Shown one piece after another: positions 20,200-23,227 of a DNA stretch of 40,660 nt. Under the pieces are notes generated by a model. The model was given only the letters and a program-made list of their open reading frames with translations. It was not told the DNA's origin and did no database searches. The DNA comes from Methanocalculus taiwanensis (lineage in GTDB: Archaea; Halobacteriota; Methanomicrobia; Methanomicrobiales; Methanocorpusculaceae), in contig NZ_VOTZ01000023.1 in NCBI RefSeq assembly GCF_024372745.1, forward strand, positions 1 to 40,660, read 5' to 3'. Within the stretch, counting starts at the first letter, position 1, and each line of letters opens with the position of its first letter. Made by a program: the position numbers and the translations under genes.

Positions 20200-21051
20200 T
20201 CACTTTTTTCTTATCTCCTGAATCATCTCTCGCGCGGCGAAGAGATATTCCTGGGCATAGCCAGCATTTGGTCCGAATATTTTGCGGGCAGAATCTGCAA
20301 TACTGTCATATGAATATCGTTTCCCCTCGTCAAGGTAGTGCGTACGCATGATCCGGTCAATCCAGACATCGACGGGTACTGCTTCCAAATGGTGAAAGGC
20401 AAAGAGGAGTATGCAATCGGCAACTTTCTTGCCTACACCGGGAAGCCTGATCAGTTCGGCGCGCGCCTCTCTGTAGGGGAGGGTCGCGATCTTCTCTTCC
20501 CACGTAGAATCGGCAGATAGCACTGTTGCAGTACCACAGAGATATTTATCCCGGTACCCGACGCGGCAACTCCGGATATCGCAGAGGGGAGATGCTGCGA
20601 GTATCTCCGGGGAGGGAAAGGTGTATCTCCCTTCACGAATCTCCTCTCCAAATCTCTCGCAGAGAAGTTTAATCCGGGTTTGTATTCCGGGAATGTTTGC
20701 AAATGTTGCGACTATATAGGAGGCAGTACATTCCCATGCCGGCTGCCGCACGATCCGAAGCCCATATGCCTCTAAAACTGCCTGCTGAAGGATCGGATCA
20801 TCCGGAAAGCCTGTTAGTATTCCTTTTAGATCCAGATCCAGATCGAAATATCTGATAATCTCCCCTTCTGTCACTCCGAAAAAGTGAAGTTGATTGCCGT
20901 CCTGCCTGATCCTAACCGCCTTATTGTTAAGAACCCCGCACCACCATGCTCCCAGCTTCTCCCACCGGAAGACCTGCCCGCAGGATAGGGTTTTATCAAG
21001 ATTGAAAGGGACCGCGTTTCCTTCCAGAACGAGGCTCATATATTCCGCCAC
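20200..21051 (-). CDS. ogg: 8-oxoguanine DNA glycosylase, OGG1 type
   Basis: Base excision repair glycosylase/lyase that removes 8-oxoguanine. The 283-residue protein has an N-terminal OGG domain (LDKTLSCGQVFRW) and a helix-hairpin-helix motif LPGVGKKVADC at 203-213 with the catalytic lysine K209, followed by the catalytic aspartate D228 in VPVDVW. The GTG start at 21051 has GGTGA 9 bases upstream, overlapping the stop of the preceding gene; an ATG four codons later is an alternative. It lies 5 bases after the methylase/HEPN gene on the same strand, so the two are probably co-transcribed. Confidence 0.93.
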   Translation of the reverse strand: MAEYMSLVLEGNAVPFNLDKTLSCGQVFRWEKLGAWWCGVLNNKAVRIRQDGNQLHFFGVTEGEIIRYFDLDLDLKGILTGFPDDPILQQAVLEAYGLRIVRQPAWECTASYIVATFANIPGIQTRIKLLCERFGEEIREGRYTFPSPEILAASPLCDIRSCRVGYRDKYLCGTATVLSADSTWEEKIATLPYREARAELIRLPGVGKKVADCILLFAFHHLEAVPVDVWIDRIMRTHYLDEGKRYSYDSIADSARKIFGPNAGYAQEYLFAAREMIQEIRKK

Positions 21052-21056
21052 GCTCT

Positions 21057-23156
21057 TTATTCACCCGTGATTAGTCCGAGATTGTTCATCATCTTATACA
21101 CATCTTCGTTCTCGTCTTCGAACCCGGATTCGGCTTCGTAGTGGTAGGATACCCACCGGACCTTCTTCCCGTCAATCCGGTTATAGAAGTACCAGGCAGG
21201 TTCACCAGTTGCCTGATGGAAAACCAGGAGAAATAAGGGCAGGAGTTTCAATGGTTCTGGACTGTCACGTGAATAGAGATACAGCGATCCGGTATCCAGA
21301 GGTATGAGTGAATTGATCGTCAACCCGAGAAAACGTGGTCTTGTGCCGGTGATGGACTTAACCTGGGAGAAAAAGATACCATCATGGTATTCCGCAGCGC
21401 TGGGTTGAATCACCATTACGTCATTGAAGGTGTCCCTGATCCTCTCTCTGAACCGGGTGAGCAATCTCTCAAGAACAACAAGCTGTTCTTCCCGCTCTCT
21501 CTCTCCGGCGATGCCTCCATGACCTTTCCAGTCGTTTCTGAGATCGGCGATCTCGTCAAAGAGGGCAAAGAGCCTCTTACTTGTTATATTATCAATAAAT
21601 TCACGACCCGGATATCCAAATTGCCGCTTCATCTCATCGTGCCTGCTTCCTGATGAGAACCTCTTTCGAATATGGCGGCCTGCCCTTCTGCAGATGATTA
21701 TCCAGCTCCGGAATGTGGCATTTTTATAAATATCACGGAATTCCGGATCCTCATCGAGGAGGTCAATCCCTTCTCTCATAATGGCCGGCTCTAATGCAGA
21801 AAGGAGAATGCCCGCAATAAATTCAGCAGCCGCCTCAAAGAAATGGAAGAGGTGGGATACTTTTCTTGCAGGGCTTCTTTCGGCAAGATATGCCCAGAGG
21901 ATGGAAGCCAGCGGATAAGGCAGGGTCTCGATCCACTCTTCGATTCTCTCTCCCTCTCTCAATGTTTCGATCTGGCTCCAGGTGGATCGTGAAGACAATG
22001 GATGCATCCAGAGTTCTTTCTGAAGCAATTTGAGCCTTCCTTGTTCAGATTCAATCAATGTGTTAATTGCGATCACCTCTGCCTGAATCTGAGGGGCGGG
22101 AAGATAGATCTCTGTCCTGGCAAGCGTATCTGAGAAATGATCAATTGTACCTGATCGCTTCCCCACAAGTTCCCGGATTGCTCTGCCCAGCTCTGTCTGT
22201 AAAAAACCAATAAGGTACTCCGGTTCAACCGTTCCGGGTCTGAGGAGGATGCATGCAGCATCGGTTGATAGATCTGACAGATCCTCGCTTGAGATCACTG
22301 GTGGTGCATCCGGTGAGAATGGGAGATAGATTCTCCTGCCTGCATCATGTAATGTTCCGCAGGCGCCGGTGATGATCGATCTGGTAATTCCGGAGAAAGG
22401 AATGCGGGGAGCTCCATGCTCTTCTGCCAGCTGTCTTACTCTCTCTTCAAGATGTATCTCATCAAGTGTTCTAAACTCTGACGACCGGATAAAAACGCCC
22501 AGTTCCGCTTTTTTCCCATTCTTCTGCTGTTTTAGATTCTGAAGGAGGATCGCATGACGCGAAGTGTCATTTAAGAGTTCTCCCACCATCATCAAACCAG
22601 CTCTTCCTTTCTTAATGATGATAAACAGCTGTTCTTCTTCTGTTCCATAGCTAGTAAGATCTCGTGGCATGGTGAGTGCTGCTTCGCAAGAGAGTCCGGA
22701 TTCCAGGAAAAATCCCTCTTTTATGGCTTTTTTGAAGAGATCCCGTGGAATGATCGAGATGAGGGCGCCATTTTCAGAAAGATGGAGCGCAGATAAAATC
22801 AGGAGGTGATAGGTACCTGATTCAGATACCTGTTGCGTATCCCTCTCTTCTGCCGCTTTCCTCCGGGATTCTCTGGGTGGCATTGAGGGGGGAAAGAGGA
22901 GGATCAGATCGAATGTCCTTTTGCATCGGGAGAGGATCGTTGCCGAATCGCCTTGTATTATCCGGATGCCTTCGTGAGTCACTCTTTTATAGTCACCCAG
23001 AATAGCTGCAGCGTATTTTGCACCAGTCTCATGACTGATTGCAGCAAGGGTATCTGTCCCATCTCCACCAAGGCTGAGGATTGATTGGTATCCTTTATCT
23101 GAAGCATACAGGACGATGAAGGATCTAATCCACTCGGGATATGCCATTGATATCAT
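21057..23156 (-). CDS. Degenerate N6-methylase / specificity-like protein with C-terminal HEPN-type motif
   Basis: A 699-residue protein of unknown function. The N-terminal 190 residues look like a SAM-methyltransferase fold (LSLGGDGTDTLA, then FDLILLFPPSMPP where N6-methylases have NPPY), so the catalytic Asn is replaced and activity is doubtful. Residues about 225-380 resemble the end of a type I specificity/target-recognition domain (CILLRPGTVEPEYLIGFLQT, ARTEIYLPAPQIQAEVI, then a helix). The C-terminal half is helical and contains RNDWKGH (R540 to H546), matching the Rx4-6H motif of HEPN nucleases. The ATG at 23156 is chosen over a TTG two codons earlier; GAGGTGA lies 10 bases upstream. 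No restriction gene or partner is nearby; ogg follows by 5 bases. Confidence 0.75.
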   Translation of the reverse strand: MISMAYPEWIRSFIVLYASDKGYQSILSLGGDGTDTLAAISHETGAKYAAAILGDYKRVTHEGIRIIQGDSATILSRCKRTFDLILLFPPSMPPRESRRKAAEERDTQQVSESGTYHLLILSALHLSENGALISIIPRDLFKKAIKEGFFLESGLSCEAALTMPRDLTSYGTEEEQLFIIIKKGRAGLMMVGELLNDTSRHAILLQNLKQQKNGKKAELGVFIRSSEFRTLDEIHLEERVRQLAEEHGAPRIPFSGITRSIITGACGTLHDAGRRIYLPFSPDAPPVISSEDLSDLSTDAACILLRPGTVEPEYLIGFLQTELGRAIRELVGKRSGTIDHFSDTLARTEIYLPAPQIQAEVIAINTLIESEQGRLKLLQKELWMHPLSSRSTWSQIETLREGERIEEWIETLPYPLASILWAYLAERSPARKVSHLFHFFEAAAEFIAGILLSALEPAIMREGIDLLDEDPEFRDIYKNATFRSWIIICRRAGRHIRKRFSSGSRHDEMKRQFGYPGREFIDNITSKRLFALFDEIADLRNDWKGHGGIAGEREREEQLVVLERLLTRFRERIRDTFNDVMVIQPSAAEYHDGIFFSQVKSITGTRPRFLGLTINSLIPLDTGSLYLYSRDSPEPLKLLPLFLLVFHQATGEPAWYFYNRIDGKKVRWVSYHYEAESGFEDENEDVYKMMNNLGLITGE

Positions 23157-23227
23157 ATTCAATCTCTCACCTCATCAAACTCTGGCAGACGAGAATACTT
23201 ATCTGCTGATACCTCTCAAAAGGCAGT

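Follow-up and report, generated by a model that had tools for sequence, protein, structure and literature searches.

What becomes of a DNA-recognition protein that has lost the catalytic motifs of its methylase, that continues into a domain resembling an RNase, and whose gene stands among housekeeping genes? This question is raised by a 40,660-nucleotide stretch of the Methanocalculus taiwanensis genome (NZ_VOTZ01000023.1, positions 1 to 40,660; hereafter the window), in which positions 21057..23156 of the minus strand encode, from an ATG start, a 699-residue fusion of a degenerate N6-adenine methylase, an HsdS-like recognition domain and a HEPN-like module. A sequence-only reading of this DNA had proposed a single-gene defence protein without a partner. 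Comparison with relatives leads us to a different picture: the family seems to supply type I restriction with an accessory subunit or a guard, which was orphaned in the archaeal lineage of the window. The reading we favor, with somewhat better than even confidence, is a sensor-effector derived from type I restriction, in which a DNA reader would release a HEPN RNase, much as in PrrC but with a built-in sensor.

Domain make-up and loss of the methylase motifs

Taken alone, the window protein gave nothing useful against Pfam, NCBIfam and PADLOC (no PADLOC family was matched); its homology to N6_Mtase lies below detection, and its NCBIfam match to Rlm_2499C5 is noise, at 18 bits against a cut-off of 650. 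Among 29 family members, Pfam recognizes N6_Mtase in 14 and Methylase_S in 4, and the profile of these 29 members matches, over its first third, the HsdM structures 7vru_A (1e-15) and 7bst_D, the HsdM of EcoR124II (5e-14). The full AlphaFold2 model (predicted local distance difference test, pLDDT, 84.8) has Foldseek matches to a type I methyltransferase (7eew), M.TaqI and CamA, and displays a Rossmann-type beta/alpha order at its N-terminus. Residues 1-190 (22587..23156, minus strand, as are all further features of the protein) are, judged by these profiles, homologous to HsdM and N6_Mtase. They are followed by an HsdS-like target-recognition domain with a spacer helix, residues 191-400 (21957..22586): around that helix the family profile matches the HsdS chains 7vru_C, 5ybb_D, 3okg and 1yf2, and PADLOC Specificity_I matches this part in the family, which bears out the specificity-like segment that had been read from the letters.

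The replacement of NPPY by FPPS, claimed in the same reading, is found at residues 88-91 (22884..22895), where the motif table of the 29 members places catalytic motif IV, [DNS]PP[YFW]. Motif I of the window copy is likewise lost (LSLGGDG), so that the methylase is dead as far as its motifs tell. Across the family the canonical motif IV occurs in a single member of the 29 (L049, NPPW), whose motif I is broken; the remaining forms are mostly non-canonical, with LP, or with PP after F, T, C, I, A or E, while motif I is retained in some relatives. Both motif I (DPACGSGNF) and NPPF are intact in just one of the copies found, an archaeal one (L206:674-2584, genome G459), which carries the HEPN-type RNETIGH and whose reading frame is broken near the C-terminus. 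Its two retained motifs make it probable that the family descends from an active enzyme.

Between sister species of the genus, the ratio of nonsynonymous to synonymous substitutions (dN/dS) is 0.38 in the methylase, 0.14 in the recognition domain, 0.10 in the HEPN domain and 0.16 in the beta domain, making the methylase the fastest-evolving and least constrained portion of the protein in this comparison. These per-domain values indicate that the gene is functional and under purifying selection, with the constraint placed on recognition and on the HEPN domain and not on methylation catalysis.

The HEPN-like helical domain, delimited by alignment and by the AlphaFold2 model, spans residues 408-575 (21432..21935), and is invariably accompanied by a C-terminal beta domain, residues 576-699 (21060..21431), that has no Pfam match; no Pfam model covers the module of the two. 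RNDWKGH (21519..21539) conforms to Rx4-6H (R540, N541, H546), its second residue being polar, and E441 (21834..21836) is an acidic residue within a long helix (FFEA). The motif is more than chance, and the conservation of R540 and H546, set as a touchstone by the earlier reading, is upheld: R540, N541, H546 and E441 are identical in all 35 aligned module sequences, which range from archaea to Prochlorococcus and share 24-69% identity with the window protein. The spacing between R and H is x4 or x5 among members (RNDHAH, RNDTSH and RNNKAH versus RNDWKGH), and an Ex3[KR] pattern around the acidic residue is not conserved in the 35. Members reached only by profile or tblastn keep the motif as RNDWSGH (G309), RNETIGH (G459), RNRWSGH (Gordonia) and RNTWSGH (Streptomyces), and one further such member (G250) retains R and H as RRACAH. 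Most loci were retrieved via the peptide LPFP[LI]ASI, so the conservation of that stretch is partly a selection effect; the conservation of RN..H is not, because the bacterial members fail the second pattern, AD[LE]RN[DLA]WK, and the profile and tblastn members keep R and H.

The AlphaFold2 model of the last ~300 residues is a confident, separate module (pLDDT 91.9; predicted TM-score, pTM, 0.92), consisting of helices and then the beta domain. In it, R540 is placed where helix 527-544 ends, the loop 545-551 contains H546, and the long helix 552-573 closes the helical part. HEPN domains have been defined by the Rx4-6H motif, a polar residue after the R, an upstream acidic residue and a location at the end of helix 3, and conserved residues of this kind go with active, not binding-only, HEPN domains (PMC3710099). 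The modeled helix layout around R540 and H546 agrees with that topology. The motif, the acidic residue and the predicted topology therefore support the assignment well; fold search and profile significance, which we weigh below, do not. We consider the helical domain to be very probably HEPN, and regard catalytic activity as likely. The architecture first proposed, a dead DNA-recognition module joined to a HEPN-type motif, was thus read correctly.

Type I restriction neighbors and fusions of the module

A scan of genome contigs with the single window sequence found no relatives. With an alignment of the Methanomicrobiales members as query, 38 loci were obtained in named genomes, from Bacillota, Chloroflexota, Planctomycetota, Verrucomicrobiota, Bacteroidota, Acidobacteriota, Pseudomonadota, Spirochaetota, Cyanobacteriota and others. 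Outside the clade of the window, hsdM, hsdS or hsdR lies within ~8 kb in 16 of 30 loci and all three in 12 (neighbors counted by phmmer, most queries being Pfam-confirmed). The remark that no partner gene is nearby consequently holds for restriction-modification (R-M) genes in the window and fails for the family, and the idea of a partnerless single-gene defence protein does not stand, as about half of the relatives outside the clade lie in or beside type I R-M operons. A 16-kb stretch taken by chance would rarely contain type I genes, of which a genome of 2-5 Mb has few, so that the link to type I R-M is strong when judged against this informal expectation.

Gene order supports the same association. 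The order M-S-X-R, X being the family gene, is seen in the Kuenenia-type locus L032 and in L045, where only a few bases separate X from the gene that follows; in L045 one short open reading frame (ORF) lies between S and X; in L034 the order M, S, X, R is kept with other genes interspersed. A Gordonia plasmid carries annotated M-S-R followed by the family gene, split in two, with a SIR2 gene nearby. Family members are present in four plasmid records. A virus-borne origin was also considered and is unsupported, with one partial relative in IMG/VR and none among annotated phages.

The module is fused directly to restriction subunits. In Candidatus Sericytochromatia (L048:4677-8897), a full-length type I HsdR has the HEPN and beta module as its C-terminus, with hsdS and a DUF262-like gene upstream. 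In Methanobrevibacter (L042:6486-8882), an HsdM (HsdM_N and N6_Mtase) is fused to the module, again with a DUF262-like gene upstream, and this HsdM is dead as well, as its motif IV reads NFSSL. Separately, a long protein of another genome (L014 1-2013, minus strand; G058) combines a STAND/NACHT-type NTPase with a HEPN-like domain of weak similarity (RNDVMGHG).

Near some members, defence genes other than those of type I systems are found, a distribution that the earlier reading had suggested checking. One member (L038:7269-10136), whose N-terminal domain matches phosphorothioated-DNA-binding restriction enzymes, adjoins DISARM drmB and drmA, and the G309 copy is near an Mrr-like gene and near what we take to be a Cas1-like gene. 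Presumed YgjP-like metalloprotease genes, named by eye, lie near the members in L026 (Bacillota) and L205 (archaeal). Two Prochlorococcus members (L050, L052) reach ~1000 residues through an extra N-terminal domain without a Pfam match, which we take to resemble the DUF3427 type.

The archaeal lineage and the rival explanations

In the window, the ATG at 23156 is more likely the start than an in-frame TTG, from which a longer ORF (21057-23162, minus strand, 701 codons) would run with the ATG two codons in; relatives in the genus begin MIPMD, and the numbering of R540 and H546 is exact when the ATG is used. The gene is present in a single copy in its host genome (2.34 Mb, 99.9% complete; the window is its contig 23) and is kept in 7 of 8 genomes of the genus. 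In the tree, Methanocalculus sp. UBA9912, Methanocorpusculaceae UBA456 and M. chunghsingensis are the neighbors. Five bases downstream of its stop codon lies the 8-oxoguanine DNA glycosylase gene ogg (20200..21051, minus strand; Pfam OGG_N), with which it is probably co-transcribed. The neighbors are housekeeping genes, with S-adenosylhomocysteinase on the same side as ogg; from reading of the sequence we presume hisF and pheT on that side and two phenylacetate-CoA ligase-like genes on the other. Two HsdR genes are found elsewhere in the same genome. Another stretch of it (G000:C1:100448-111723) encodes a type I HsdR ~10 kb from a large protein that carries a Swt1-type HEPN, and is probably a separate island related to R-M and BREX.

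Nine Methanomicrobiales sequences form one clade (support 99/98) among R-M-linked lineages. A second archaeal lineage (G119), which acquired the gene independently of this clade, preserves a record of how such a gene may become solitary. Directly upstream of its family gene is a relic ORF of 124 codons (L208:8896-9267; also in L063), whose residues 1-25 align with the beginning of HsdM at 56% identity and whose residues 28-107 align with the final part of HsdS at 46%. Its sequence identifies this ORF as the scar of an internal hsdM-hsdS deletion, what remains of a type I operon that has been lost. At least once, then, an accessory gene of type I restriction has outlived its restriction genes, and the same probably happened in the clade of the window.

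Several observations weigh against a sensor-effector derived from restriction. No R-M genes are near the gene within the window, nor at ≤8 kb in the archaeal clade, whose copies are chromosomal and adjoin housekeeping genes, and about half of the loci are without R-M neighbors, some owing to short contigs. The recognition domain is 90% identical between sister species, and since the recognition domains of real restriction systems diversify fast, such conservation counts against this reading. Foldseek searches of the module model against PDB and BFVD gave no significant match, so the structure prediction once suggested for the C-terminal half yielded helix and loop placement as HEPN requires without a recognizable fold relative. 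Finally, the best profile match of the HEPN part, to Swt1-type HEPN, reaches only P = 0.01 with the RN..H motifs in register (reversed control 0.27), in a test weak enough that accepted HEPN families score P 0.014 to 0.6 against each other.

Among the alternatives, the one that survives best assigns the archaeal clade a domesticated housekeeping or DNA-damage role coupled to ogg, the HEPN domain being a damage-triggered RNase or an RNA binder. The order gene, ogg, ahcY recurs in the Methanomicrobiales loci read with enough flank (L015, L017, L018, L019, L021), and two families of the order, whose copies are ~33% identical in protein sequence, both have the gene immediately before ogg; the monophyly of the clade, its conserved recognition domain with low dN/dS, and the absence of defence neighbors from the window point in the same direction. 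Against this, 58 of 61 relatives possess ogg and nearly all of these lack the fusion gene, and in the sister genus a paaK-like ligase adjoins ogg with no fusion gene between them. The glycosylase hence does not need the fusion gene, and ogg as an obligate partner is ruled out. As the relatives outside the clade are, moreover, linked to R-M, we regard a role coupled to ogg as unlikely.

Even less probable is a purely regulatory function, with the dead M-S unit restraining HsdM and HsdR in the role of a decoy or of an alternative specificity subunit, and the HEPN domain non-catalytic, RNA-binding or dimerizing. The position between hsdS and hsdR in several loci and the HsdR and HsdM fusions would suit such a regulator; the full conservation of E, R, N and H, tied to active HEPN domains (PMC3710099), and the existence of solitary and DISARM-linked copies argue against it. 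We give a similarly low probability to the view that the helical domain is not HEPN, and that RNxWKGH is a structural motif of an unrelated helical fold with another function, e.g. a scaffold. The lack of a significant fold match in PDB or BFVD speaks for it, as does that of any Pfam HEPN family above threshold (HEPN_Swt1 gave E = 0.18 in one member). Yet the motif position, the x4/x5 variation, the polar residue after R, the invariant upstream acid and the helix layout all fit HEPN, and accepted HEPN families also fail to match one another in the profile test. That the N-terminal domain still methylates via a non-canonical motif is highly improbable, despite motif I in some relatives and its pairing with NPPF in L206, as the window copy is without both motifs and the methylase is its least constrained domain.

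Proposed mechanism and comparison with known systems

The favored sensor-effector reading builds on the domain make-up, the motif loss, the invariant HEPN residues, purifying selection, type I linkage and fusion, and the relic scar, to which we add by inference an RNase activity, a trigger and an outcome. The HsdM-like domain, without its catalytic motifs, and the HsdS-like recognition domain would constitute a one-chain DNA reader attached to a HEPN endoribonuclease that has a beta domain of its own. In bacteria, where it occurs in type I R-M operons, the protein probably either binds the HsdM2S core or competes with it. The trigger would be an abnormal state, either target DNA that is unmodified or a core that a phage anti-restriction protein has put out of action, the target or the state of the complex thereby controlling the HEPN RNase; once set free, this domain would cleave cellular or viral RNA and lead to dormancy or abortive infection. 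In Methanocalculus and its relatives, the reader-effector alone, upstream of ogg, may act by itself or guard type I systems elsewhere. The conserved, not diversified, recognition domain of the solitary archaeal form suggests a fixed ligand, such as a constant DNA site or a host protein like HsdM, and not a specificity arms race. More tentatively, and with less than even odds in our judgment, decommissioned M-S units may read the methylation of specific DNA sites, so that an unmodified target fires the HEPN RNase with no DNA cutting. If true, methylation-based self/non-self discrimination would trigger RNA-level immunity, a new effector arm of type I restriction.

A 2013 survey found R-M-linked HEPN domains fused to nucleases, helicases and ATPases, not to methylases (PMC3710099). 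The present family is an architectural exception to that rule and fits its functional logic, because its methylase is dead. A fused methylase that is almost invariably dead would in turn explain the rule, in that a modification enzyme still at work would bear no HEPN domain. That HEPN RNases accompany restriction systems is already known; in this widespread family they are fused to a methylase/specificity unit, and a search of the open-access literature found no description of the family. The archaeal copies also illustrate how an accessory gene of restriction can end up solitary and fixed in methanogens.

Five known systems offer comparisons. HEPN-M proteins share the presence of HEPN and methylase in one chain, through occasional methylase fusions, although that entry concerns the DUF86/HepT-type HEPN (Table 1 of PMC3710099). 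With MADS there is a likeness in parts, as MAD2 of PADLOC and NCBIfam matches the methylase part (profile positions 268-460 of 492) and MAD5 the S-like part; the MAD2 matches, however, stop before the HEPN module and are far under the curated cut-off, and no MADS gene set is recognized alongside. Membership in MADS was accordingly rejected, the MAD2 match covering the methylase only and not the full length. HEPN-DUF499 ATPases (Swt1-type; type-1 BREX-related, Hma; PMC12839542) likewise fuse HEPN to a component of an R-M-like system, and their Swt1-type HEPN is the source of the best, still weak, profile match described above; in them the partner is an AAA+ ATPase and the active methylase is separate, whereas here HEPN is joined to the very unit of methylase and specificity. 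Type I HsdM and HsdS share the N-terminal fold and the recognition domain with our protein, which differs in that the catalytic motifs are lost, M and S are merged with a single recognition domain, and a HEPN and beta module is added.

PrrC of EcoprrI, and RloC, complete the series. PrrC is a HEPN RNase encoded in a type I R-M operon, and is thought to be kept silent by the R-M complex and let loose upon inhibition of that complex or an increase in unmodified DNA (PMC3710099). In PrrC and RloC an ABC/SMC-like NTPase does the sensing; in this family no such ABC-type N-terminal domain is found by Pfam or profile-PDB search, and a dead HsdM with an HsdS-like reader takes its place. The result would be a compact and testable design, a DNA reader wired to an RNase, which offers the question posed by PrrC, how a restriction complex restrains a toxin, in a single polypeptide.
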